Assembly (NCBI GenBank): GCA_021851715.1
Contig: JAJZCR010000030.1
Span: forward strand, 1-37,816
Length of the DNA: 37,816 nt
Reading direction: 5' to 3'
Origin: Planctomycetota bacterium
Lineage (GTDB): Bacteria; Planctomycetota; Phycisphaerae; WQYP01
The notes under the pieces were generated by a model. The model ran no database searches, was not told the origin of the DNA, and was given only the letters and a program-made list of their open reading frames with translations. Below, piece after piece: positions 7,920 to 23,016 of the stretch (within the stretch, counting starts at the first letter, position 1; every line of letters starts with the position of its first letter). Both the position numbers and the translations under genes were made by a program.

Positions 7920-9035
7920 TTAGATGGTAACTTCGTGAGTACGGGTCAGGCGCTGGACTTCGAGTAAAAAAGAATCGGCGGCGGCTAAGGAGGGAAACTC
8001 GGGTCCGCCGACATCCAGCCAGACGCCGCGCGGTCCAATGGCCGCGAGCACGGCCAGGGCGTCGGCGGGATTTTCCGCCAGAACCTGGACTGCTTTTCCG
8101 GCGCTGCGGATGCGGCGGTAGACATTCATCCAGTCGCTGGCAGGCCCATGTCCGGCTCCGAACACCCATTGGATGGCATGGAGGTCAGGCAGTTCCAAAA
8201 GCCGATCGAGGTGACGCAGGGCCTGCACACCGTCAAGGTGAAAGATGCTGCGTGCCAGGGGTTGCATTTCCACCAGAATATCGGGCAAAATCAGGTTGCC
8301 GGCCACCTCATCTGAAACCATGCACCAGAAATCACAACTCGGAACATAGGCCGGTCCTTGATGGTAACAGGCGGTCCAGCAGGTGCTGCCAAAACCCGCC
8401 TGCTGAACCATGGCGTATTGTCTGTTCAATGCCGCGGCAAATCCGTTAGATACGTGGCGGCCAGCCTGTCGGATTAGTTCCGGGACATCGAGAATATCCT
8501 CACACAACGCCTGGGGATCGCGCAGCGCCGCTAAAATATCATAGTTGCCATGCAAATCCGTCATGCCCACCACAAACCGTTGGTCGCAGATATCCAGGGC
8601 ATAGCGCATCATAGCTTCGATGGTTTGCCAGTAGATGTTGGAAAAATCTGGCGGCGAGTCGATAATTTTCTTCCACTCGTGAGGGTGATGGACCACCGGG
8701 GAAGACCAACTGGTGTCGGTGCTGAATTCGAGAGGGCATCCGAACAGGGTGGCGGTAATTTCCGGGCCGAGATTGGGCCAGAAGATTGGGAAGGAATCGC
8801 CGGGATAAACGCGCCGGGACATGGATTCCACGGCCGTGTCCACTATGTATTGCACGTCCATCCAGCGGTCGCGGAGCAGGGGAGGTTGAGGACGTGCCGG
8901 GGCCATGGCGGTGCAGGCTGGAGCCGCGGCCCGGAGGGTAACAGGGGGACGGTCCAGCACCTGGCAATTCCACCAGGCTTCAAACCGGTCGATGGTGCGG
9001 GCAAAATTGGGCTTGAGCTGGAGTTCACGGATCAT
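7920..9035 (-). CDS. UroD/MtaA-fold protein A (corrinoid methyltransferase-like)
   Basis: This is a 371-residue member of the uroporphyrinogen decarboxylase superfamily, which includes corrinoid-linked methyltransferases such as MtaA, MtbA and CmuA. The C-terminal half carries the barrel strand with FHLDG (H266, D268, G269) and the helix-strand QALRHLDRLLELPDLHAIQW. The cysteine of the usual HxC zinc motif is replaced by Asp, and no distal Cys is evident near the C-terminus (GVWLDVGG). It may therefore be a substrate-binding or non-zinc relative. It is rich in Trp and Cys in the N-terminal part. It is the last gene of the eight-gene C1 cluster, 50 bp after its neighbour, with a GC-rich hairpin between. 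The SD is weak. The substrate is unknown. Confidence 0.75.
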   Translation of the reverse strand: MIRELQLKPNFARTIDRFEAWWNCQVLDRPPVTLRAAAPACTAMAPARPQPPLLRDRWMDVQYIVDTAVESMSRRVYPGDSFPIFWPNLGPEITATLFGCPLEFSTDTSWSSPVVHHPHEWKKIIDSPPDFSNIYWQTIEAMMRYALDICDQRFVVGMTDLHGNYDILAALRDPQALCEDILDVPELIRQAGRHVSNGFAAALNRQYAMVQQAGFGSTCWTACYHQGPAYVPSCDFWCMVSDEVAGNLILPDILVEMQPLARSIFHLDGVQALRHLDRLLELPDLHAIQWVFGAGHGPASDWMNVYRRIRSAGKAVQVLAENPADALAVLAAIGPRGVWLDVGGPEFPSLAAADSFLLEVQRLTRTHEVTI

Positions 9036-9055
9036 GGTTTAGTCCGATCGTGGTG

Positions 9056-9073
9056 CCGCCGTGGTCGCGGCGG
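9056..9073 (-). other. GC-rich hairpin between UroD-fold genes B and A
   Basis: CCGCCG (9056-9061), a six-base loop and CGGCGG (9068-9073) form a 6-bp GC-only stem inside the 50-bp intergenic space. There is no T-run after it on the minus strand, so it is more likely an mRNA-stability or translation-coupling structure than a terminator. Confidence 0.35.
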
Positions 9074-9085
9074 AAAAGGCACCCT

Positions 9086-10252
9086 TTAAATACCAAATTC
9101 TTTGCCGGCGTGATACATCGCTTCGGTATTTTCCAGCGGAGTAAAGGGAGCCAGGTTGTTGCCTTCCCGCAGGAGAAATAAACCTCCCTCCAGAATGCCG
9201 GACTGCATAATGCGTTGCACCTCCGTGCGAACTGCGGCGGGATTGCCGGTACGCAGCAATTCCACGTGCGGACCTCCATTCATACGGACCTTGGGGCCCA
9301 ATTGGCGCCGCAACTCGCCAAAGTTGACCGGGAAACCGGTATCAAAAGCCCAGACATTTAATTCGTCACGAATGGTTAAAAAGTGACGGGTGGCATCTCC
9401 GCATAGATGTATGCTGCGCCGCCCGGCGGGGCACAGAGCGTCACAAAGCCGGCGATGGTGCGGCAGCACGTGCTGACGGTACATATCGGTGGAAATCAGG
9501 GCGATACTGTCATCGGCAAAACCGAAATCTGTGACGGTCAACGGCATACCGGTCCGTTTTCGCCAGGCGGTCATGCGGTGAATTGTAGCTTCGGTGATGA
9601 AGTCGAAGAGTCGGTGCAATCGTTGCGGTTCTTCGGCCATAGCCGTGCAGACGAAATCCGGTCCAAAGAGGTTGCAGGCCACGGTCATCACGCCGTCGGT
9701 TCCCAAGCCGGGCACATTTATCTCAATGGGAATGTCCAGGTAGGTTTTCCGCGCCGCCAGATTTTTAAAATATTGAAAATAATCCCAGCTACGGGCCAGC
9801 AGGCCGCCAAAGGGGTCCGGCAGCCCGGAATCCATGACCCGTTCGGGGCAATCGGTAAATGCGGGTGTGGTATCGGGCACCTGGCCTTCGAGATAGATAA
9901 TGGGGCAGCCAAACCAGCCGGCCTCGTAGTAATTTTGAAAATCCGGTGAAAGCTGCCAGCGCTGCGGCAGGCCCAACTCGGCATCCTGCAGGATATTGTG
10001 GCGGGACCAGCGTTGAAATTGCAACTGCAGGTCAAACATGATATCGGGATTTTCTGAATACGTCTGGAAGGTGATTCCCGATGGATTGGCGTGGTCGTTG
10101 AGGAGGAAGTAGCGGGAATTGGTGCCCACGATCACCGGGGTGGCAGTAGGCTCTCCGGCATTAAAGGCCTCCCAGACTTTTTTTACGCCGACGTTATGTC
10201 GGGCGAAATCCAGGTGCGCCAGGCGGTCGGTTGCCAGCGAATGTGGTTGCAT
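9086..10252 (-). CDS. UroD/MtaA-fold methyltransferase B (HxC type)
   Basis: This 388-residue UroD-superfamily protein is the most MtaA-like of the four. It has IHLCGDATRH (H282, C284), the HxC zinc pair that activates the thiol or methyl acceptor in MtaA/MtbA. Its ending also has the typical family shape (MNGGPHVELL, then EGGLFLLREGNNLAP and a TPLEN helix). The distal third ligand, usually a Cys in a GC motif, is absent: the equivalent stretch reads REGNN. The likely role is methyl transfer between the cluster's corrinoid protein and a small substrate or acceptor. The SD AAGGAG lies nine bases before the ATG. It is the seventh gene of the minus-strand cluster. The true acceptor cannot be read from sequence. 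Confidence 0.8.
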   Translation of the reverse strand: MQPHSLATDRLAHLDFARHNVGVKKVWEAFNAGEPTATPVIVGTNSRYFLLNDHANPSGITFQTYSENPDIMFDLQLQFQRWSRHNILQDAELGLPQRWQLSPDFQNYYEAGWFGCPIIYLEGQVPDTTPAFTDCPERVMDSGLPDPFGGLLARSWDYFQYFKNLAARKTYLDIPIEINVPGLGTDGVMTVACNLFGPDFVCTAMAEEPQRLHRLFDFITEATIHRMTAWRKRTGMPLTVTDFGFADDSIALISTDMYRQHVLPHHRRLCDALCPAGRRSIHLCGDATRHFLTIRDELNVWAFDTGFPVNFGELRRQLGPKVRMNGGPHVELLRTGNPAAVRTEVQRIMQSGILEGGLFLLREGNNLAPFTPLENTEAMYHAGKEFGI

Positions 10253-10309
10253 GGTGATCTGCTCCTTTTTGTTGCCGCCGCCGTCCGACCCAGTTCCGCA
10301 AGCCGTGAT

Positions 10310-11413
10310 CTATCCCGGTGATTTCAAACTGGCGGCTGTTTCATACATGGCGAGGACATTTTCCACGGGTGTAACCGCCTGGATGTTGTGACAAGGGGCA
10401 CAGAACCAGCGGCAAGATTTGAAAATTTCCGCGGTCTGGCGCACTTCCTCGGCCACCTGCTGGGGGGTGCCGAAGGGGAGTGTCTGCTGGTTATCAATCG
10501 CCCCATGAAAGGCCACCAGGTGACCGTAGTCGCGGGCCAGGGTTTCCCGCTCCATTCCCGGACATCGCCATTGGATAGGGTTGAGCACTTCAATACCGAC
10601 CGTGTGAATGAGATCTGGAATGAATGCATGGGCAGCGCCGTCGGTGTGGTAAAAAACATGAATGCCGAAGGATCGGGCCAGGTCGGCCATGCGTTTCTGA
10701 TATGGCAGAAGGAACCGGCGGTAGATTTCCAGGCTGAAGAGCGGTCCGGTCTGGCCGGCTAAATCCTCCGCGACGTAGGTCATGTCAATATGACCGCGGC
10801 CCGCCTGAAAAATGCGCCGATTGTGTTCAAAAAAGAAGGCGAACATTTTTTCCAACGCGGCTTCGACCATGTCGGTATTGAGCAGCATGTCTTCGTAAGC
10901 CTGTTCCATGCCGCGCATGCCGGCGTAGATGAGGAACGGCTCGTATCCCCCGGCTTGAATAATGCGGTACCCATCATCATGGTGCAATGCCTCGGTCATG
11001 GGCGAATAATCAAAATCATCCGGGTCCGGCCAGCGAAATGCCCGTACTTGTTCGGGTGTGGTCATGGCGGCCAGCGGACCGGTGGTGAACTCGTCATAAG
11101 ATCCGGTCCCGTAGTCGATGCGGCGGTGCCGGTTGCCCCACATATCGGCCTGGGGATCATCAGGATGAGCTTTGAGCTTCCAGCGTGGTCCTACCCCACG
11201 TGGATGGTCAATATTGAGCCGCCGCCAGAGAATTTCATCAGTGCTCCTGGCGGATCCCAGGTCTACAGGCGGGTGTTGCGCCTGTGTATCGGTGATACCC
11301 AGCTTGGAGAGTAATTTGGCGTGGAATTCGCCCGTGGCCCAGTAGTCGGTGGGTATGCGGTCGGCGGGCTGCTTGTTAAGTAGCGCCAGCCAGCGTTGTC
11401 GCGGTGTCATCAT
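10310..11413 (-). CDS. UroD/MtaA-fold protein C (HxD ... C type)
   Basis: This 367-residue UroD-superfamily protein has a classic N-terminus (MTPRQRWLALLNKQPADRIP) shared by corrinoid-linked methyltransferase relatives. The metal-site strand reads FYHTDGAAH (H256, D258) and the distal loop reads FCAPCHNIQAVTPVEN (C341, H342). It thus keeps the distal Cys that protein B lacks, but has Asp instead of the first Cys. It starts nine bases after the stop of gene D, and its SD (AAGGGA) overlaps that stop, so translation is probably coupled. Methyl transfer to or from a corrinoid is the family expectation; the substrate is unknown. Confidence 0.8.
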   Translation of the reverse strand: MMTPRQRWLALLNKQPADRIPTDYWATGEFHAKLLSKLGITDTQAQHPPVDLGSARSTDEILWRRLNIDHPRGVGPRWKLKAHPDDPQADMWGNRHRRIDYGTGSYDEFTTGPLAAMTTPEQVRAFRWPDPDDFDYSPMTEALHHDDGYRIIQAGGYEPFLIYAGMRGMEQAYEDMLLNTDMVEAALEKMFAFFFEHNRRIFQAGRGHIDMTYVAEDLAGQTGPLFSLEIYRRFLLPYQKRMADLARSFGIHVFYHTDGAAHAFIPDLIHTVGIEVLNPIQWRCPGMERETLARDYGHLVAFHGAIDNQQTLPFGTPQQVAEEVRQTAEIFKSCRWFCAPCHNIQAVTPVENVLAMYETAASLKSPG

Positions 11414-11422
11414 GATAGTCCC

Positions 11423-12505
11423 TTAGGCATAGCGTCCGTATTTCTCAACCATTTGCATGATGGCCTGATAGGTTTTCCAGCTTACCTGCGGCGGCACACT
11501 GTGATCGCTATGATAAATGTAACCTTTGGTGGCCATGCCGGCGACGAATTTGGCTTTAATTTCGTCTTCGATGCCGGCCAGATCGTTGGTGGCCATTTTC
11601 ATCACATCGATGTTTCCGAAGAATGCCAGTTGGCGGCCATATTTCGGGCAGAGCGTGCGAATATCCACGCCGGCTTTGGCCTCCAGGGGTTGCAGGCAGT
11701 CAAATCCTGCTTGTACGTATAAATCCATTACGCCGTTGATATCGCCATCGGTGTGATAGATAAATTTCATGTTGTGCGCGTGGGCCCATTCGGCCATACG
11801 CCTGTGATCAGGCCAGATCAGTTCTTTATACATGCGTGGTGAGCACATGGTTGCATGGTTGTAGGCCATGTCGCCGTATATCCACAGGCCATCGGGTTGA
11901 ATGCCGGTGGCCATGGCGGCATCAAAGTTACGCAGGACCTGGTCGGTAAAGGTGCGGGAAACATCGCGAATCCATTCGGGGTCTTCCACCATGGCCATGA
12001 GCGTAATTTCATCGCCCATGAGCGACCGGGTTTCTTCAAAACTTTCGACGCCGGTCAGGTGGCACCAGAGGCCCTTCGCACGGCCCCGGCGGTAATTGCG
12101 CTTCACCGCATCCGGATCAATTTGCAGGCCGGTATCCAGCAGGGCTGGTTTGAAGGTGTGTTCCCACACCTCCCGCGAGGAGCACTCAAAGCCCAGATGT
12201 TCCGGTGTTCCGCTTTTTTCTTTCCAATAGCGCACGCGTTTGCCTTGGGAATCGCGCACCACGCGGGTCTGGGCGTCTTCTTCAATCAGCGTGTCCTGGC
12301 CCGGAAAAATACAGGGCCATACCCAGCACAAGCCGTGAAAGTCGCTGCCAAGCATATCTAAAACAGTCTGGGCATCGCCGGAAAGGCCTTCGTCTTTCCA
12401 GCGGGTGATGGTTTCGCTCCAGAATGATTCATGTCGCGGCACGCGGTCGTGATCCTGGCGTGCGAAGGCGCGATTCACACGTTCCTGACTCGTAAGGCTG
12501 GCCAT
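11423..12505 (-). CDS. UroD/MtaA-fold protein D (HxD ... H type)
   Basis: This 360-residue UroD-superfamily protein starts MASLTSQERVNRAFARQDHDRVP, the usual first helix of this group. I chose the ATG at 12505 because AAAGGA lies at good spacing and upstream residues are Ser/Pro-rich coding overlap with the amidohydrolase. The metal-site strand is FIYHTDGDING (H251, D253), and the distal loop is YHSDHSVPPQVSW (H332, D334, H335) with no Cys. The site is thus His/Asp-rich rather than thiolate-rich. It begins one base after the amidohydrolase stop. A carboxylate/histidine site could still bind Zn or another metal. Activity and substrate are unknown. Confidence 0.8.
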   Translation of the reverse strand: MASLTSQERVNRAFARQDHDRVPRHESFWSETITRWKDEGLSGDAQTVLDMLGSDFHGLCWVWPCIFPGQDTLIEEDAQTRVVRDSQGKRVRYWKEKSGTPEHLGFECSSREVWEHTFKPALLDTGLQIDPDAVKRNYRRGRAKGLWCHLTGVESFEETRSLMGDEITLMAMVEDPEWIRDVSRTFTDQVLRNFDAAMATGIQPDGLWIYGDMAYNHATMCSPRMYKELIWPDHRRMAEWAHAHNMKFIYHTDGDINGVMDLYVQAGFDCLQPLEAKAGVDIRTLCPKYGRQLAFFGNIDVMKMATNDLAGIEDEIKAKFVAGMATKGYIYHSDHSVPPQVSWKTYQAIMQMVEKYGRYA

Positions 12506-12506
12506 G

Positions 12507-13757
12507 TCAATTCCTTTGAGATAAGAGCGGTGATGCGACGATGGGTGAGGTGCCGTCGGGCTTGACTGCCTGTCCATTGCGGCAGATCAACTGGACCCGG
12601 CGCAAAGAGTTCATATCCTTGAATGGCGAGTCGTCCAGGCCGATGAAATTCGCGGCTTGTCCCACGGCCACATCCGCGGGCGACGCGTTCCAGAGTTGGC
12701 GTGGCACGGCGGTAGCGGCGCTGAGCACCTGCTGAACCGTCAGCCCGGCCTGCCGCAAAAACAGCACTTCATCAATGAGGCCTGTGCCATGCGGTACGCC
12801 GTAACTTCCGGCATCTGACCCTGCGACCACGGGGACTCCCTTCGCGGCGGCCCCGGCAACGTTATGAAAATGATTCTGCAAAATGGCGTGGAGTTTATCC
12901 AGGGTGGCCGGGTTCCATTGGGTGACATCGGGACGGGAGAATTGAAAATAAACCGGTGCAAAGGTGGGCACCCAGGCGGTGCCTTTGTCGGCCATTTTCT
13001 TAACGATATCCGGTTCCATAAAAAAGCCATGCTCAATGGAATCGATGCCCGCTTCCACGGCAATGTTAAGCCCTTCAGGCCCATTGCAATGGGCGTACGT
13101 TTTCAGGCCCAGGCGGCGGGCTGTGCGCACAATCAAACGTGTTTCTTCAAGGTCAAATTGCACGGGGCCCTTGACGCAGCCATTTTCAAAATCAATGATG
13201 CCGGTCAACAGAATTTTCAGATCGTCGGCGGTGGCGGCCAGGGTTTCAATGGTGTTTTCAATACCGGCTGCATCGCGGACTTCCAGGGCCATGAAGCTGC
13301 CGTATCGGCCGGTTTTGCGAATGGCCCGCCCGGGGCTGCGCAACTCAGGTACTACGCCTGAGGCGTGGGAAATTTCTTCTTTCAAGTGAGTGTTGATGCC
13401 GTGGATATCGCCGGCGTCGCGGATCAGGGTAATGCCCGCGGCGAGATTGGCCGCCAGATTGGCGCGGCCGGTGCTGAGCATCTGCGAGCGGCCGGCTGCC
13501 AGGTATTCTTTGCGCCGGGCCAAGTCCAATTCGCCGCCGTCGAGAAACAAATGGCAGTGGGCCTCGACCAGCCCCGGCATGACAAATGCCGTGTGCAAAC
13601 GCGTGGTGGCGGCATCGTTGGCTGGAAAACCATTGCTGGATCGAAGCTCGCAGATGTCCCGGATAATCCCATTGGCGATGGTCAACAGATAGGGGCCTGC
13701 ACTGTGGTTCTGCCGCCCGTCAAAAAAGCTTTCCGCCTGAATCAGCAGGTTATTCAT
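12507..13757 (-). CDS. Metal-dependent amidohydrolase in the C1 cluster
   Basis: This 416-residue amidohydrolase-superfamily protein of the imidazolonepropionase/prolidase-like type is cytoplasmic, with no signal peptide. The full binuclear metal set is visible: H67 and H69 (MPGLVEAHCHL), candidate carbamylated K181 (LKILLTG), H223 (YAHCNG), H243 (IEHGFFM) and D315 (GSDAGSYG). Flanking beta-sandwich pieces are at both ends (1-60 and 345-410). Family members hydrolyse C-N bonds of amides, lactams and dipeptides, and some are deaminases. The ATG overlaps the stop of the preceding methyltransferase gene (ATGA), and the next gene starts one base after its stop, so it belongs to the operon. It might open or release the N-methylated or amide substrate that the UroD-fold proteins act on; that is inference. 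Confidence 0.85.
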   Translation of the reverse strand: MNNLLIQAESFFDGRQNHSAGPYLLTIANGIIRDICELRSSNGFPANDAATTRLHTAFVMPGLVEAHCHLFLDGGELDLARRKEYLAAGRSQMLSTGRANLAANLAAGITLIRDAGDIHGINTHLKEEISHASGVVPELRSPGRAIRKTGRYGSFMALEVRDAAGIENTIETLAATADDLKILLTGIIDFENGCVKGPVQFDLEETRLIVRTARRLGLKTYAHCNGPEGLNIAVEAGIDSIEHGFFMEPDIVKKMADKGTAWVPTFAPVYFQFSRPDVTQWNPATLDKLHAILQNHFHNVAGAAAKGVPVVAGSDAGSYGVPHGTGLIDEVLFLRQAGLTVQQVLSAATAVPRQLWNASPADVAVGQAANFIGLDDSPFKDMNSLRRVQLICRNGQAVKPDGTSPIVASPLLSQRN

Positions 13758-14644
13758 GCCTCGTCCCTCTGGTAGAGCTGGCGAATACGCTCCAGCGTGT
13801 CGAAACCGTCCAGCGTGATGGCCTGCTGGAATCCCTGCAGCACAAAATCGTCGGGAGGCAGAATGCGGTAATCACGGCCGGGCGTGCCTAAAACAGTGTC
13901 CAGACCGTGCGGCATGGTCAGGGTGAGAAAGGCGGATTCTATTTTTACCGGAAGAGGACTGCCATCCACGGCAACTTTGGGCAGCATGATGCCCAGATTG
14001 GAAAGCCCCACCACCATATGAATGCCGCGCAGGTCGGTATCTGCGCCGATGAGGCGGATGGCTTCCACAGCCCGCCGCACCAGGCCATTGGTATCCATCG
14101 CAATTGGCGTGAGGGATACATCCACAAATAAGTCTTCGGGTGCCAGACCATAGCCATCAGAGAGAATGTTATGCACCATGCGATGCACGGTGGAGGCAAT
14201 TTCGGCGGGAGTTTCATTGGCGATGGGTTGGCCGTTTTCCATCCGTTCAGAGGCCATGAGCACCACTTTGGCGGGGGTTATCTTGAGCACATCCAGCATA
14301 TCCCATCGCAATTCAGAAATGGAATTGACGATGGGTTTACGGCCCTGAGCTTTGGCCGGCTGCCAGGCCTTCAGGCAGATTTCCTGTACGGCACGGTTGG
14401 GATAATCAAATGACAAGGGCAGATGGCTGACGCTTTGCACGGCCTGGATGACATCCACCAAAAAACCGCTGTCGTGCTCCGCCCGATCTCCAATATTAAT
14501 AGTCAGGTAATCGCAGCCTTTGGCGGTCTGGGATCGGGCCAGTTCCTGCAGGCCGGGGATATCACCACCGTCGAGCATGGCCTTGGATTTGGCGAATCCG
14601 GGATTGATGCGCTCGCCGATGATTTTCAAACTGGGAATGGACAT
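13754..14644 (-). CDS. Methyltetrahydrofolate:corrinoid methyltransferase (MeTr/AcsE/MtrH-like)
   Basis: This 296-residue pterin-binding TIM barrel transfers the N5-methyl group between methyl-THF and a corrinoid protein. Typical signatures are IGERINPGF at the N-terminus, GCDYLTINIGD, KPIVNSISELR, LFVDVSLTPIAMDTNG and GLSNLGIMLP. The Asn in the last one corresponds to the pterin N5-contacting Asn of acetogen MeTr. Length fits the stand-alone enzyme. The ATG at 14644 has GAGGG upstream; a longer reading would be buried in metVF. The gene overlaps metVF by 19 bp and the amidohydrolase by 4 bp, so translational coupling is likely. In this setting it would link the corrinoid protein to the folate pool. 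Confidence 0.88.
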   Translation of the reverse strand: MSIPSLKIIGERINPGFAKSKAMLDGGDIPGLQELARSQTAKGCDYLTINIGDRAEHDSGFLVDVIQAVQSVSHLPLSFDYPNRAVQEICLKAWQPAKAQGRKPIVNSISELRWDMLDVLKITPAKVVLMASERMENGQPIANETPAEIASTVHRMVHNILSDGYGLAPEDLFVDVSLTPIAMDTNGLVRRAVEAIRLIGADTDLRGIHMVVGLSNLGIMLPKVAVDGSPLPVKIESAFLTLTMPHGLDTVLGTPGRDYRILPPDDFVLQGFQQAITLDGFDTLERIRQLYQRDEA

Positions 14645-16011
14645 GCTGCCCTCATACCACGAGTTTTGACCGATGAAATAGCGGTATCGTCGCCTGGTTC
14701 CGACAATAACGGTTCCAGCGGCGATGGCTTCCAATCTGATCGACTCGCCGGCAAATCGCCAACCAAGCCCGGCAACACCGCGTGATCCGGACCAAAAAGC
14801 ATCAGATGGACGCCGGACACGCCGGGAATGTCATAGACCTCCGCAATAATTTTGCGGGCAGCGGCCAGCCCCGCGGTAACAATATCGGGTGCCTGTTTCA
14901 AATGCTGGATCGTGTCCGGCGGGAGATAGGCACCGGGGATTTTGGGCAGCATATCCAATACTTTTGTGGAAGTTACCACGGGTACCCCGACAATCAGAAA
15001 TACATCTTCATTCATTTTTTCCTGGCGGAACAGGTCCATGAATTGGCGGAATCGCGGCACGTCAAAAACCAACTGGGTCTGGATAAAATCCACCCCGGCG
15101 GCAATTTTTTGCTTGAGTCGGCGAATGGGCACGTCAATTGGCTGGGTATAGGGATTGATAGCGGCGCCCAGGAACGGCTGTGGGGCGGGCCGCATCGATT
15201 CGCCGGTGAAACGGATGATGCCGGTCTGGCGCAGATGCCGGGCTTCATAAATCATCAGCGCGGCATCCATATCAAACACTTGTTTAATCTTGGGCAGGCC
15301 GCTGTAGGAATCACCGGTCAGGCACATCACGTTATGAACATCGTTGAGCTGATTTTCAAGCAACTCCGCGATAAAGGTGGTCCGGGTATGATCCCGGCAG
15401 GTAGACTGGCAAATGGCTTCTATGCCCATTTTGCCCAGCTTCACCGCGGCCATGGGCGATGAAATGGATGGCCGGGCATTTAAATACGCAGTGGCGTTAA
15501 CGGCATCAAAGTGATCGCGTACCAGCAGGGCTTGGCACACAAAGCTGTCCCACCGGGCGGTACGCGGGGCGCGAATTTCGCAGGTTTTGACGAAGGCTCC
15601 GGATTTTAACCGCCGTTCAAGTTGTGAGGGCGTGGCCACAGGCTGGCGGGTACGTTGCTGGCCTAAATCCAGATAGGGCAATGGCGTGCGGCCGCTGCGG
15701 TCTGATCCGGAGAGCATATTCAAATAAGAAGAGGTATTAAATAAACGGGCGTCGGGCGAAGGCAGCAGTGGCGGCGTATCCAGGGAAGAGCCCGCAGTGC
15801 GGTGACCGATGCGCACCCAAACACATCGGCGATCTGGGTATACTTCACATTCTCCATGCAAGGTGCCGCCACAGGGACCATTGCGCAGGCCTTTGGGGCA
15901 AGTCATGGGACAGATCAGACCGGTTTGGCTAAGCACACATTGGCCGCAGGATTGGCAGTCGAACACCAATCCTTTCAAAAATGCCTCAATGTGTGCCACG
16001 GTTTTCTGCAT
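14626..16011 (-). CDS. MetV-MetF fusion: methylenetetrahydrofolate reductase with N-terminal Cys-rich domain
   Basis: The 461-residue protein has two parts. Residues 1-65 hold eight cysteines (C19, C22, C25, C34, C38, C47, C55, C63) in the pattern CQSCGQC...CPMTCPKG...GPCGGT...C, the hallmark of the MetV-type domain that accompanies MetF in acetogens and probably binds Fe-S. Residues about 125-430 are a MetF barrel (AVNATAYLNARPSISS; MGIEAICQSTCRDHTRT; NVMCLTGDSYSG; DFIQTQLVFD) that interconverts methylene-THF and methyl-THF using FAD. A Pro/Ser-rich linker (70-120) joins them. MetV and MetF are usually separate genes. The C-terminal 30 residues overlap the next gene and look unstructured. 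The gene follows the corrinoid gene by 62 bp, across a terminator-like hairpin. Confidence 0.88.
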   Translation of the reverse strand: MQKTVAHIEAFLKGLVFDCQSCGQCVLSQTGLICPMTCPKGLRNGPCGGTLHGECEVYPDRRCVWVRIGHRTAGSSLDTPPLLPSPDARLFNTSSYLNMLSGSDRSGRTPLPYLDLGQQRTRQPVATPSQLERRLKSGAFVKTCEIRAPRTARWDSFVCQALLVRDHFDAVNATAYLNARPSISSPMAAVKLGKMGIEAICQSTCRDHTRTTFIAELLENQLNDVHNVMCLTGDSYSGLPKIKQVFDMDAALMIYEARHLRQTGIIRFTGESMRPAPQPFLGAAINPYTQPIDVPIRRLKQKIAAGVDFIQTQLVFDVPRFRQFMDLFRQEKMNEDVFLIVGVPVVTSTKVLDMLPKIPGAYLPPDTIQHLKQAPDIVTAGLAAARKIIAEVYDIPGVSGVHLMLFGPDHAVLPGLVGDLPASRSDWKPSPLEPLLSEPGDDTAISSVKTRGMRAACPFPV

Positions 16012-16073: not shown

Positions 16074-16712
16074 TTAGGCTGCCGCCACCAGTCGCCGTGC
16101 CGTGTCCACCGCGCCGGCGGCATCGGCGGCAAAGCCATCCGCACCGATCTCCTTGGCAAAGGATTCGGTAATCGGGGCACCGCCGACCACAACCTTTAAT
16201 CCCGGTAGATTAGCGGCTTTCAAGGCCATAACCGTTTGTTTCATAGCCGGCATGGTGGTGGTAAGCAGGGCAGACAGGCCGACCACTTTGGCCTTATGTT
16301 CGCGGACGGCGGCGATGAATTTCTCAGCAGGTACATTGGATCCCAAGTCTACAACGCCGAAGTTTGCCCCCTTCCACATCATGGCGACAAGGTTTTTCCC
16401 GATGTCGTGAAGATCTCCCTGCACCGTACCGATCACGGCGGTAAATTCAGGCTTGATGCCCGCCTTTATCAGCAGCGGCTCCAGCACGGCCATGCTTTCG
16501 CGCATGGCCCGCGCAGCAATCAGCATTTCCGGAACAAAGACCTGATTGCACTGAAACTTGCGGCCCACATCGTCCATGGCGGCTACCATGGCGGCGAGCA
16601 CTTGGGCAGGCGGGGTGGCGGCTTCGATGGCCTGTTTGGTCAGACGCACCGCTTCGGCACGGTTGCCCTTGCCGATGGCCAACGTAAGCGAATTGAGATC
16701 AACCTCTACCAT
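16074..16712 (-). CDS. Corrinoid (B12-binding) methyl-carrier protein, MtbC/MtaC-like
   Basis: This 212-residue protein has the two-domain layout of methyl-carrier corrinoid proteins. A four-helix cap (about 1-88, with VGRKFQCNQVFVPEMLIAAR) precedes a Rossmann-like B12 domain with GTVQGDLHDIGKNLV (D100-x-H102-x-x-G105; His102 is the lower cobalt ligand), VVGLSALLTTTMPAM and VVVGGAPIT. It shuttles methyl groups between a substrate methyltransferase and a folate or other acceptor methyltransferase. I chose the ATG at 16712 because GGAG is eight bases upstream; earlier in-frame residues run into the promoter. It is the first gene of the cluster. A MetH-type role is unlikely because no MetH domains are attached. 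No reductive activase (RamA-like) is in the window. Confidence 0.92.
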   Translation of the reverse strand: MVEVDLNSLTLAIGKGNRAEAVRLTKQAIEAATPPAQVLAAMVAAMDDVGRKFQCNQVFVPEMLIAARAMRESMAVLEPLLIKAGIKPEFTAVIGTVQGDLHDIGKNLVAMMWKGANFGVVDLGSNVPAEKFIAAVREHKAKVVGLSALLTTTMPAMKQTVMALKAANLPGLKVVVGGAPITESFAKEIGADGFAADAAGAVDTARRLVAAA

Positions 16713-16755
16713 GACACATTCTCCAAAGCCTGGGAACATGCCGACGCACAAAATA

Positions 16756-16784
16756 ATTCTACAATTATGGGGTCGAATACGCAA
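16756..16784 (-). promoter_or_regulatory. Candidate sigma-70 promoter of the C1 cluster
   Basis: On the minus strand TTGCGT (16784-16779), a 17-base spacer and TAGAAT (16761-16756) give a fair -35/-10 pair in the AT-richer part of the 140-bp gap. The start would be near 16749, about 37 nt ahead of the ATG at 16712. That is too short for a cobalamin riboswitch in the leader. Confidence 0.4.
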
Positions 16785-16852: not shown

Positions 16853-18292
16853 TTATTCCAGATACACCTGATCTCCGGCGGAAATGGGCGGAATATCGGA
16901 CTTTCTGTCCAAAACATCCTGTGGATACAAGGCAAAGGATGGGGCGATTTCGATGATGCAATCGGGCGTGCCATCGGTCCGGCGGGGAATCTCAACGCCG
17001 GCTGCTGCCAGCCACGCGACGTTGCGAATATTGGTTATTTCGCGGGAGGATACCACCGAATCAATACCTGTGGGGGCTTTGATCGGGGCGAATTCGTCGC
17101 CGCGACTGGTTTCATAAATGATAGAACGAGCCGTGAGGGGTAGCGCATCGAAAACGAAGGTTTCCATCTTAACCGCGTTAGGCTGGTCTGGTTTTATGGA
17201 TTGGCCGGAAATGGGATCAATACAAGGCACTTTTTTCTCCGCTCGATGATAGGGCAGAGCGAAGCCGTGGTCATTGAGTGATTCCACAAAATCGCGGCGC
17301 ATCGCATGAAGGGCAATGCTGCCAGCACGAAACCTAAGTTCGCCGTTGGGCAGTCGTTGTTCAGCGAGAGAATCGGGCAGATCGGAATATTCGATAACCG
17401 TCAGTTTGCCGTTTACGAGACAGAAATTGCCGAGTTTCTCCTTGCCGAAGGCCTTGGGCAGCATTTTGCTCGACATCTGGGCCTCGTCCAGATCATGCAG
17501 GCCGATAAAGAGAGGATCAATACAGCGGACAATGGGGTTATCTACCTGGAAATAGCTGATTTGCTCAATCCCTCGACGTCGCATATCCGTCAATGCTCCG
17601 CTTTTATGTAACGCTAAAAGCGATCCGCCATGTCCATTCGGTGATAAGGCGAGGCTGGCCGGTGTTTCCAGCAAGGCTTTACCGTCAAAACCAATAGCGG
17701 GCAGCATGTCTTGCGGAAAGAACATCACCTGCTGCGGATTCAGATGAAAGTATTGATGGCTTTCCCAGAAACTGACTGTAGCTGCATGGTTGATAGGGCT
17801 GGTCATAACATACAATGGAATCGAGCGGCCATAACGTTTAGCCAAGGCCATGAGAAATTCGGCAAAGCATTGGAAAAGGGGTTTTTGACGCACGGGCGTG
17901 GCCGGGAACGTTCCCTTGGGGCCGTCCCAGCCAAGTCGAGTGCCTTGGCCGCCAGCCACAACGAAGGCGGCAATTTTTCCTTGGCGCAGCAAGTCTTCGC
18001 CACGGGCAAAGGCCTTGCGGTATTTTTGCTGTTGAGCAGCATCGTTAGGTACGTACGGGTAAACGGTGGGGGGGGACAGATCGGCTGGAATTTTCCAGGC
18101 CTGAGGCTTGAGTACGACGGACTGCACCAACTGGTGTACCAGCGGCCAGTCGAGAGAGGCTATCTGCCGGTCAAGTTCCAATTTTTCCGGCGAGGATAGG
18201 CGGTGGTAAAAGTTCATGAGATGTTGTTGGCCGAACTGCCCCAGCAGGTTTGACAATGCCTGGTGATCGGGAGGCGGTGGAACTGGTTGCAT
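16853..18292 (-). CDS. UDP-N-acetylhexosamine pyrophosphorylase (UAP1/UDPGP type)
   Basis: This 479-residue enzyme of the eukaryote-like UDPGP family is not GlmU-like. It makes UDP-sugars from UTP and a sugar 1-phosphate, most likely UDP-GlcNAc or UDP-GalNAc. The nucleotide loop is VAGGQGTRLGWDGPKG (about 112-127). Further family motifs are SPNGHGGSLLAL, YFQVDNPIVRCIDP (uridine and metal site) and KMETFVFDALP. The N-terminal helix pair (LLGQFGQQHLMNFYHRLS) is also typical of UAP1, which supports the ATG at 18292, with AAGGG upstream. UDP-GlcNAc would feed cell-surface polysaccharide, for example the WecA-type enzyme at 30147-31265. It overlaps a small membrane-protein gene by 122 bp. Confidence 0.88.
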   Translation of the reverse strand: MQPVPPPPDHQALSNLLGQFGQQHLMNFYHRLSSPEKLELDRQIASLDWPLVHQLVQSVVLKPQAWKIPADLSPPTVYPYVPNDAAQQQKYRKAFARGEDLLRQGKIAAFVVAGGQGTRLGWDGPKGTFPATPVRQKPLFQCFAEFLMALAKRYGRSIPLYVMTSPINHAATVSFWESHQYFHLNPQQVMFFPQDMLPAIGFDGKALLETPASLALSPNGHGGSLLALHKSGALTDMRRRGIEQISYFQVDNPIVRCIDPLFIGLHDLDEAQMSSKMLPKAFGKEKLGNFCLVNGKLTVIEYSDLPDSLAEQRLPNGELRFRAGSIALHAMRRDFVESLNDHGFALPYHRAEKKVPCIDPISGQSIKPDQPNAVKMETFVFDALPLTARSIIYETSRGDEFAPIKAPTGIDSVVSSREITNIRNVAWLAAAGVEIPRRTDGTPDCIIEIAPSFALYPQDVLDRKSDIPPISAGDQVYLE

Positions 18293-20949: not shown

Positions 20950-21834
20950 ATGGCACGCACGGAAAAATTCAGGGTAGGTCTGCTGCAGATGAGCTGCGTG
21001 GATCATGCAGCAACGAATATGGACAAGGCGGTTGCGCTCATTCGGCAGGCGGCCCAACGCGGTGCGCAGGTGATCTGCACGCAGGAACTCTTTCGCAGCT
21101 TGTATTTCTGCCAGACCCAGGATTTACAGCTTTTTGACCTGGCGGAAACCATTCCGGGGCCGTCCACGGAAGTTTTCGGGCGGCTGGCCAAAGAACTGGG
21201 CGTGGTGCTGGTGGCGTCGCTCTTTGAAAAGCGGGCGGCGGGAATTTATCACAATACCGCAGCGGTATTGGATGCGGACGGATCTTTGCTGGGGCTGTAC
21301 CGCAAGATGCACATTCCGGATGATCCGCTTTATTTTGAAAAATATTATTTTACCCCCGGCGATCTGGGCTTTAAGGCCTTCGACACACGGTTTGGCCGCC
21401 TGGGGGTGTTGATCTGCTGGGACCAATGGTATCCGGAGGCAGCTCGGCTAACGACCATGCAGGATGTAAGCGTACTGTTTTACCCGACGGCCATCGGCTG
21501 GCATCCACGGGAAAAGGCGGAATTTGGTGAAGACCAGGTTAGCGCCTGGCAAACCATGCAGCGATCACATGCGATTGCCAACGGCGTATACGTAGCGGCG
21601 GTCAACCGCGTGGGCCATGAAGGGGCGGCGGGCGGCGGGATTGAATTTTTCGGCAGTTCATTTATCTGTGATCCGTTCGGACGGGTGCTGGAGCAGGCGG
21701 GGCGGCAGGAAGAAGAAATATTAATTGCTGAAATTGATCCTGCCCAGCAGGAAATCACGCGACGCAATTGGCCGTTTTTTCGAGATCGGCGTATTGAGTA
21801 TTACGGCCCGCTGACCAGACGTTTTGGCGACTAA
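20950..21834 (+). CDS. aguB: N-carbamoylputrescine amidohydrolase
   Basis: This 294-residue nitrilase-superfamily enzyme hydrolyses N-carbamoylputrescine to putrescine, CO2 and ammonia. The catalytic triad is visible: E46 (CTQELFRS), K119 (YRKMHIPDDP) and C156 (LICWDQWYPEAA). The loop DDPLYFEKYYFTPGD and the end IEYYGPLT are typical of AguB rather than other carbon-nitrogen hydrolases. The ATG has AGGA seven bases upstream. Agmatine deiminase, the enzyme of the preceding step, is encoded 69 bp downstream, which strongly supports the assignment. Confidence 0.94.
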   Translation: MARTEKFRVGLLQMSCVDHAATNMDKAVALIRQAAQRGAQVICTQELFRSLYFCQTQDLQLFDLAETIPGPSTEVFGRLAKELGVVLVASLFEKRAAGIYHNTAAVLDADGSLLGLYRKMHIPDDPLYFEKYYFTPGDLGFKAFDTRFGRLGVLICWDQWYPEAARLTTMQDVSVLFYPTAIGWHPREKAEFGEDQVSAWQTMQRSHAIANGVYVAAVNRVGHEGAAGGGIEFFGSSFICDPFGRVLEQAGRQEEEILIAEIDPAQQEITRRNWPFFRDRRIEYYGPLTRRFGD

Positions 21835-21903
21835 CATCCGTGGGTGACGCATGGGCGGCCGGGTCGGCTGTAAGCCTGGGCCCAGCGGCTATCGAAAGAT
21901 TTT

Positions 21904-23016
21904 ATGGGCACCACGCACCAGCACAATACCCTTCCCGCCAAGCTTGGATTTTCCATGCCCGCTGAGTGGGATCGCCATGCCGCCACATGGCTGGCCTGGC
22001 CGCACCACCGGGCGGATTGGCCGGGGAAATTTGGCCCGATTCCGTGGATATTTGCAGAAATTGTACGTTTGATCGCCGCCGGGGAATTGGTGCATATTCT
22101 GGTGCAAAATGCCGCCGAGCGTTCGCTGGCCAGGAAAACACTGGCTCGAAACCATGGCGAAGATGCTGGAAACGTCCGCTTTCACGTTCTTCCGACGGAT
22201 CGCATCTGGACGAGAGATTCCGGACCGACCATGGTACGTCGTGGCCGGGGTGCCGCAGCTCAAGTGGCGGCTGTCGGCTGGCGGTTTAACGCCTGGGCGA
22301 AGTACAAAAATTACCTCCTGGATCAGCACGTACCACGGTTTATCGCCCGAAAAGCCACTCTGGCCCTGTACCAGCCGATGGTGAAGGGGACGGATGGAAA
22401 ACCGCGGCGTTTTGTGCTCGAAGGCGGCAGCATAGATGTCAACGGATCGGGCTGTGTTTTAACTACGGAAGAATGTCTGCTTTCGTCCAGACAACAGCGC
22501 AATCCCGGACTGGATCAGGCGGGAGTGGAACAGACTCTCTGTGATTTTCTGGGGGTGCAGAAAGTGCTGTGGCTGGGGCAGGGCATCGCCGGTGATGATA
22601 CGCACGGTCATATTGACGATACGGCCCGGTTTACTGGTCGATCCACCATTGTCGCGTGTGTCGAGCAGAATCGGCAGGATCCCAACTATGAGCCCCTGAT
22701 GGAAAATATGCGGCGGCTGCGAAAAATGCGCGATCATCGCGGACGCCCCTTTGATGTGGCGGAACTGCCCATGCCCAAGCCGGTGATTTTTGACGGGCAG
22801 CGGCTGCCGGCCAGTTATGCCAATTTTTATGTCTGCAACGCCGGGGTGCTGGTGCCGGTATTTAATGATCCGGCGGATGGTGCGGCACTAAAGGTGCTAG
22901 AGGCGTGTTTTACCGATCGGCCGGTGATACCCGTTTATTGCCGCGATTTGGCCTGGGGCCTGGGCACGTTACACTGCATGACGCAGCAGCAGCCGGCTGC
23001 AGTTGAAGGGGAATAG
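21904..23016 (+). CDS. aguA: Agmatine deiminase
   Basis: This 370-residue enzyme of the guanidino-modifying (PPADI-like) fold converts agmatine to N-carbamoylputrescine and ammonia. Motifs: MPAEWDRHAATWLAWPHH at the start, WTRDSGPTMV, LEGGSIDVNG, GDDTHGHIDD and the nucleophile C358 in GTLHCMTQQQP. Length fits the family. The first ATG has only a weak SD (GAAAGAT). With aguB it makes a complete two-step route from agmatine to putrescine; arginine decarboxylase is not in the window. Confidence 0.95.
   Translation: MGTTHQHNTLPAKLGFSMPAEWDRHAATWLAWPHHRADWPGKFGPIPWIFAEIVRLIAAGELVHILVQNAAERSLARKTLARNHGEDAGNVRFHVLPTDRIWTRDSGPTMVRRGRGAAAQVAAVGWRFNAWAKYKNYLLDQHVPRFIARKATLALYQPMVKGTDGKPRRFVLEGGSIDVNGSGCVLTTEECLLSSRQQRNPGLDQAGVEQTLCDFLGVQKVLWLGQGIAGDDTHGHIDDTARFTGRSTIVACVEQNRQDPNYEPLMENMRRLRKMRDHRGRPFDVAELPMPKPVIFDGQRLPASYANFYVCNAGVLVPVFNDPADGAALKVLEACFTDRPVIPVYCRDLAWGLGTLHCMTQQQPAAVEGE

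Follow-up and report, generated by a model that had tools for sequence, protein, structure and literature searches.

The 37,816-nucleotide contig JAJZCR010000030.1 of a Planctomycetota bacterium (assembly GCA_021851715.1), which is referred to in full as the window, carries on its minus strand, from 16784 to 7920, a block of eight genes. In order of transcription, they encode a corrinoid protein, a methylenetetrahydrofolate reductase with a MetV-type domain (MTHFR/MetV), a methyltransferase of the MeTr type, an amidohydrolase, and four proteins of the uroporphyrinogen decarboxylase (UroD) type, which are designated as D, C, B, and A. We consider it on balance probable that this operon encodes a corrinoid-dependent demethylation pathway, in which D is the core first methyltransferase (MT1), A, B, and C serve less surely in the same role, and the methyl groups of O-methyl-type substrates are passed through one carrier to tetrahydrofolate (H4folate). 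An earlier reading of the sequence (the original prediction) had described four UroD paralogs with four different metal sites; its residues and coordinates agree with the translations when D is read from the ATG at 12505. The source assembly comprises 3.87 Mb in 154 contigs and is 88% complete; the window is contig C77, further contigs named below are C57, C93, and C133, and the nearest named relatives are the Planctomycetota metagenome-assembled genomes JAJYDW, JAJYZF, and JAJZNX. The genes of the operon and the gene directly upstream are as follows.

16853..18292, minus strand: UDP-glucose pyrophosphorylase-like gene directly upstream of the operon; PF01704; syntenic in the genus (L068, L070, L071)
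16074..16784, minus strand: predicted methyl-carrying corrinoid protein, MtgC/MtbC-like; PF02607 and PF02310; best model NF047996 MtgC at 171.5 bits, below the cut-off of 370
14626..16011, minus strand: predicted MTHFR with an N-terminal MetV-type Cys domain (DUF5981); PF12225 at 84 bits, PF02219 at 79 bits
13754..14734, minus strand: predicted methyl-H4folate:corrinoid methyltransferase, MeTr/MtgA type, second methyltransferase (MT2); PF00809; PRK07535 at E 8.6e-26, below cut-off
12507..13757, minus strand: predicted amidohydrolase of the Xaa-Pro dipeptidase/imidazolonepropionase-like type; PF01979; NF051886 at 122 bits, below the cut-off of 500
11423..12505, minus strand: protein D, URO-D family, 360 aa from the ATG at 12505; PF01208 at 51 bits; H251-x-D253 (11747-11755), H335 (11501-11503)
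10310..11413, minus strand: protein C, URO-D family, 367 aa; PF01208 at 66 bits; H256-x-D258 (10640-10648), H342 (10388-10390)
9086..10252, minus strand: protein B, URO-D family, 388 aa; PF01208 at 79 bits; H282-x-C284 (9401-9409), N365 (9158-9160)
7920..9035, minus strand: protein A, open reading frame of 371 aa with a predicted UroD/MtaA fold; putative site H266-x-D268, encoded within 8232-8240, lacking an identifiable third ligand

Because the intergenic gaps in the block are at most 62 bp and several genes overlap, the eight genes are likely to form a single transcript. The order from the corrinoid gene to A is kept in three further genomes of the same genus, and a fourth has D-C-B-A at the end of a contig. 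The UDP-glucose pyrophosphorylase-like gene is probably unrelated to the operon. As for gene starts, the longest open reading frame of D begins at 12577 (residues are counted here from 12505), and the MeTr gene probably starts at 14644 (MSIPSLKIIGERINPG). The corrinoid protein is 95-96% identical within the genus and has an intact cobalamin His motif, DLHDIG (residues 124-129), which fits DxHxxG; its orthologs show no alignment before residue 20, and translation may thus begin internally, near 16712.

The operon holds a complete gene set for an MT1-carrier-MT2 pathway, and the mechanism that we infer from this gene content would run as follows. A UroD-type MT1 would transfer the methyl group of a substrate to the Co(I) form of the carrier, giving CH3-Co(III)-carrier, from which MeTr would pass the methyl group to H4folate. 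MTHFR/MetV would then oxidize methyl-H4folate to methylene-H4folate for the one-carbon (C1) pool. Reactivation of the corrinoid would fall to a RACo-type activator from another contig (C133), and the amidohydrolase may release or process the substrate. In the clusters of relatives, the methyl acceptor would be homocysteine. As for the fate of the methyl group in this bacterium, the only PF02574 domain in the assembly lies outside the operon in a 1221-aa frame, the size of which fits a full-length MetH, and no stand-alone PF02574 homocysteine methyltransferase, such as is present in the clusters of relatives, was found in the assembly. FolD and a haem-copper oxidase are present in the genome, and no CdhC/ACS was found in the 88% complete assembly. 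Given this MetH-sized protein, FolD, and the oxidase, and with no CdhC found, a catabolic route or supply of the C1 pool suits the methyl flow better than synthesis of methionine or acetate: acetogenesis was rejected because the search of the 88% complete assembly gave no CdhC, and methionine synthesis as the purpose of the operon was rejected on the 1221-aa protein encoded elsewhere. The amidohydrolase was also considered as a replacement methenyl-H4folate cyclohydrolase since its gene always follows that of MeTr, an idea weakened by the presence of FolD.

The genomic neighborhoods of D relatives point in the same direction. A scan with the D alignment, taking one genome per species, gave 80 loci, the neighbors of which were then clustered; the resulting counts are approximate, since automated calling of open reading frames produced some spurious ones, and they are not independent, since many loci of Opitutae nearly duplicate each other. 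The loci belong mainly to Planctomycetota and Verrucomicrobiota, and also to Armatimonadota, Anaerolineae, and others. Recurrent neighbors of D are a corrinoid protein, RACo (PF14574), DUF1638, homocysteine S-methyltransferase (PF02574), and many UroD-type proteins, and some clusters also contain MtaB (PF12176) or MttB (PF06253; L238). RACo, DUF1638, PF02574, MtaB, and MttB all belong to corrinoid methyl transfer. A corrinoid gene lies within 6 kb in 31 of the 47 assessable loci whose D relative reaches at least 48% identity and in 2 of 11 below 48%; a locus was assessable if it showed a corrinoid gene or had 6 kb on both sides, a definition that favors positives. In each of Planctomycetota, Verrucomicrobiota, and Armatimonadota, close D relatives adjoin a corrinoid gene. 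At least two UroD-type proteins occur in 33 of 36 corrinoid-bearing loci, at least three different triads of the putative ligand residues described below in 26, and at least four triads in 17, with up to ten UroD-type proteins per locus.

Members of the A, B, and C subfamilies recur in clusters with D and a corrinoid gene in the same three phyla, and their relatives beside D in other phyla are 48-56% (A), 42-66% (B), and 45-57% (C) identical. In one cluster of Verrucomicrobiia (L172), relatives of A (56%), C (57%), D (73%), and the second UroD of C133 stand together with homocysteine methyltransferase and RACo genes, and B relatives at 60-66% accompany D in L174, L187, and L213. The methyl-transfer genes also occur in related arrangements: corrinoid protein-D-MTHFR-MeTr-amidohydrolase in Opitutales (L196), and corrinoid protein-MTHFR-MeTr-amidohydrolase with RACo upstream and MttB and UroD genes downstream in Planctomycetota FR_30 (L238), so that the amidohydrolase gene follows MTHFR-MeTr in both. 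Judged from these neighborhoods, D appears strongly linked to methyl transfer, and A, B, and C less so.

Three further features of these loci were observed. A CobW-family GTPase gene, possibly for a metal chaperone, lies between the B-like and D-like genes of a corrinoid cluster with multiple UroD genes (L187, 8957-9946). A family of proteins of about 450 aa without a Pfam match (neighbor cluster c15; L174, 1267-2637, and 15 others) stands beside D in Opitutae and Verrucomicrobiia and, by eye, resembles an A-like UroD relative. Pairing of a PhyH gene with a D-type UroD gene recurs in L202, L206, L207, L211, and L227.

The four proteins are only distantly related to each other. BLASTP identity among them peaks at 31% over 98 aa (C and D), and for A no significant similarity to the other three was obtained; low identities and separate subfamily distributions rule out four recent duplicates and support A-D as old, separate subfamilies, in line with the original prediction that they are not simple duplicates. 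The PF01208 gathering score of 23.9 is exceeded by B, C, and D, and library scans gave no Pfam or NCBIfam match for A. Methyltransferase models of the MtaA/CmuA kind match B and C below the cut-offs (NCBIfam MtaA/MtbA-type models: B, 58 bits versus 244; C, 54 versus 235; A, no match). B matches MtaA of known structure (PDB 4ay7) by phmmer at E 2.3e-5, and a comparison of B with the plasmid collection gave one weak match. We built AlphaFold2 models of A and C, which are metal-free, from subfamily alignments. The model of C (pLDDT 91.8) has 4ay7 as its best PDB fold match (E 9.2e-15, TM 0.66/0.71), followed by UroD. The model of A (pLDDT 93.0) matches 4ay7 and UroD at E 9e-9 to 1e-7 and TM about 0.6, with 4ay7 best (E 8.7e-9, TM 0.56/0.61), and hhalign of the A profile with the C family gave a probability of 95%; apart from the fold match of its model, A as a query had no match among solved structures. 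A is thus predicted by modeling to have the UroD/MtaA fold. The suggestion that some of the four are decarboxylases is not favored by the corrinoid methyl-transfer neighbors and by the hemE equivalog TIGR01464, which matched none of A-D at E 0.001. A role of one or more of the UroD-type proteins as an MT2, passing methyl groups from the corrinoid to a thiol or other acceptor like MtaA/MtbA so that the operon would methylate rather than demethylate, appears very improbable. Although MtaA, the closest solved structure, is an MT2 and some relatives have the methanol MT1 MtaB beside the corrinoid gene and D, MT2-type genes are already there (MeTr here, PF02574 in relatives), and MtaA-type thiol activation uses a His-Cys-Cys set that is absent from A-D.

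The translated reading frames contain HLDG in A (H266/D268), HLCG in B (H282/C284), and HTDG in C (H256/D258) and D (H251/D253), and the distal loops contain APCH with C341 in C and YHSDH in D. In the columns of MtaA, A reads HD-, B HCN, and C and D HDH; as originally predicted, the HxC...C set of MtaA/MtbA is in no copy, and hence the four do not share one canonical zinc site. C341, which had been singled out as the distal-loop residue of C, was ruled out as its third ligand by three alignments. A profile of 22 C orthologs aligns with MtaA (4ay7) without gaps, 'aPChniqavtP' over 'APGCGIAPMTP' (the C loop itself is APCHNIQAVTP), and places H342 on the third zinc ligand, C316, with C341 one residue earlier; the same register was obtained in a 269-protein MAFFT alignment and in an hhalign comparison of the B and C profiles, in which the C316 column holds H335 of D and N365 of B. 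In an alignment with true UroD (4wsh), the His of the latter likewise falls in the loop of D. Because H342, not C341, occupies the C316 position, C and D have one putative triad, His-Asp-His, while B would have His-Cys-Asn and A His-Asp without an identifiable third residue. The claim of four different sites therefore needs amending: the ligand sets do differ and are fixed by clade, but the alignments point to three site types rather than four.

Conservation within subfamilies and across the wider family was also assessed. H266, D268, and G269 are invariant in 19 A sequences; H282, C284, N365, and N366 in 16 B sequences; H256, D258, C341, and H342 in 22 C sequences; and H251, D334, and H335 in 20 D sequences, where residue 253 is Asp or Cys. 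Among 324 well-filled alignment columns of 259 relatives, only two consist of Cys, Asp, or His to at least 90%, and these are exactly the two HxD/C columns, which coincide with zinc ligands of MtaA. The first column has H in 215 and D in 41 relatives; the second has D in 175, C in 80, and H in 3; the third has H in 162, C in 30, N in 19, and D in 9. The share of Cys, Asp, and His at the three positions is 98.8, 99.6, and 88.5%, respectively. On a FastTree tree built without the triad columns, the triads require 21 changes, compared with a mean of 156 for shuffled labels; very long branches are present, and only the contrast with the shuffles was used. These distributions indicate that ligand sets are fixed by clade and that the site types are real, and the restriction to three letters argues for sites that bind zinc or another metal, without showing a metal. 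In this superfamily, His-Cys-Cys marks S-methyltransferases, and carboxylates replace Cys in O-methyltransferases (Kountz and Balskus; PMC10418091). By analogy, Asp and His in place of Cys in C, D, and A suggest O-methyl or other hard-donor substrates, the rule pointing to O-methyl substrates for C and D and perhaps for A, and B, with one Cys kept, may differ in substrate.

Several points weigh against the demethylation pathway or its putative metal sites. True UroD, which binds no metal, likewise has His at the third position (4wsh alignment). CdmB and the MtvB of Moorella are active without zinc (PMC13222342); thus ligand-like residues are no proof of a metal, and the ligand rule is not absolute. 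Together with Asn in B and the empty position in A, both poor ligands, these cases would fit acid-base or substrate-binding residues at HxD/C...H, with no metal site and a variation that tracks the substrate only. We regard this as unlikely, given that two of the three positions are almost only Cys, Asp, or His, which holds for no other column, and that the variable columns coincide with the zinc ligands of MtaA. The operon itself is without RACo, as Pfam scans of the main open reading frames of the window found none in the operon or elsewhere in the window. The argument for A as an MT1 is drawn from its predicted fold and its neighborhood only. Finally, the nearest orthologs of A, B, and C in related genomes stand in loci without corrinoid, RACo, DUF1638, homocysteine methyltransferase, or MtaB genes (0/7, 0/6, and 0/12, respectively), and because these loci have no corrinoid gene, A, B, and C may not depend on the corrinoid protein.

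The last point, which concerns orthologs outside the genus, is what would be expected if only D were a corrinoid methyltransferase and A, B, and C had joined the operon as UroD-fold enzymes (lyases, hydrolases, or decarboxylases) for a product that is demethylated or sugar-like. This explanation, which we consider possible though not likely, would also suit a C ortholog (L148) that adjoins a PhyH-like gene and an AraC-like regulator gene (translation read by eye), as well as the divergence of A beyond detection by any Pfam model. It is at odds with the recurrence of the A, B, and C subfamilies in D-plus-corrinoid clusters of three phyla, with the alignment of B and C to MtaA/CmuA models, and with the folds of A and C, which match MtaA best. 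The demethylation pathway with D at its core and a corrinoid protein that would be common to all four UroD-type proteins is the reading that we retain.

A wider reading, which we advance tentatively as falling somewhat short of an even chance, is that Planctomycetota, Verrucomicrobiota, and Armatimonadota have in these loci a type of corrinoid cluster that has not been described before. Within such clusters of oxygen-respiring bacteria, one carrier would be served by a library of UroD-fold methyltransferases with systematically varied metal positions (HDH, DDH, HCH, HCC, HCN, HCD, and HD-), each for a methylated substrate of its own, and the methyl group would be passed to homocysteine or H4folate. 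A literature search, with subscription journals mostly outside its reach, found no work joining multi-UroD clusters or a methyltransferase of this kind with Planctomycetota or Verrucomicrobiota. If the reading is true, many 'uroporphyrinogen decarboxylase' entries of Planctomycetota and Verrucomicrobiota in databases would be parts of a demethylation hub, the metal site would be a readable code for substrate class with testable predictions for many genomes, and corrinoid demethylation of several substrates would be placed in oxygen-respiring bacteria. The operon, as a natural set of HDH, HCN, and HD- variants with one fold and one carrier, would provide a direct route to the relation between ligand hardness and preference for O-, S-, or N-methyl groups.

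Further genes of this kind occur elsewhere in the genome. The single RACo gene of the assembly lies on C133, directly after that of another UroD with Asp-Asp-His (L086, 4248-7412). On C93, a UroD-family protein (L001, 7223-8227, minus strand) contains His-Cys-Cys in complete form (HICG, GC) and scores 171 bits with TIGR01463 MtaA/CmuA, below cut-off; since this protein is the best URO-D match of the genome, true HemE may lie outside the assembly. On C57, the gene of an Asp-Asp-His UroD-type protein adjoins a phytanoyl-CoA dioxygenase-like gene (PF05721; L167, 7447-9284). Within the window but apart from the operon, a radical SAM protein with DUF3463 is encoded at 366-1523, the domain make-up of which we take to be that of the hopanoid protein HpnH, and a carbon-nitrogen hydrolase gene stands beside that of a PF04371 deiminase at 20950-23016, probably for an agmatine-to-putrescine pathway.

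Corrinoid MT1-carrier-MT2 systems with UroD-type MT1s (Mto, Cdm), clusters with multiple UroD genes (type 1 mlp), and aerobic links between demethylation and methionine are already known. With MtaA/MtbA (4ay7), the operon shares the predicted fold, the putative ligand positions, and a separate corrinoid protein in the same type of pathway, but His-Cys-Cys is in none of A-D, the NCBIfam scores are far below the cut-offs, and the acceptor would, by gene content, be H4folate. Type 1 mlp clusters likewise have several UroD-superfamily proteins around one corrinoid protein (PMC10418091); their sites are His-Cys-Cys, they include a Ram protein, and their definition excludes an H4folate methylase within 20 kb, whereas the present operon has MeTr (13754-14734), no Ram, and no His-Cys-Cys, and hence is not of this type. 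The split methionine synthase and MtgBCD systems of roseobacters (PMC5764234, PMC12478193) also have separate corrinoid and pterin-binding modules, with a PF02574 module like that of relatives of the operon, RamA-like and DUF1638 helpers (PMC5764234), and a link between demethylation and methionine synthesis in aerobes (PMC12478193). Their demethylases are of the MtgB type and not UroD, whereas our operon is without PF02574, and elsewhere the genome has a gene that fits a full-length MetH. The chloromethane methyltransferase CdmB (PMC13222342) is a UroD-superfamily MT1 with a carrier and a pterin MT2; no metal was found in CdmB, and no operon with multiple paralogs was described there. The bacterial and archaeal O-demethylase systems (Mtv, Odm, Vdm, and Mto; PMC8630106) share with the pathway proposed here a UroD-superfamily MT1, an MtgC/MtbC-like carrier, a pterin-binding MT2, a RACo-type activator, and a carboxylate for Cys, as reported for O-methyltransferases (PMC10418091). 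Judged by their descriptions, the operon is set apart from them by four unlike UroD subfamilies, MTHFR/MetV and the amidohydrolase, and an activator encoded on another contig.

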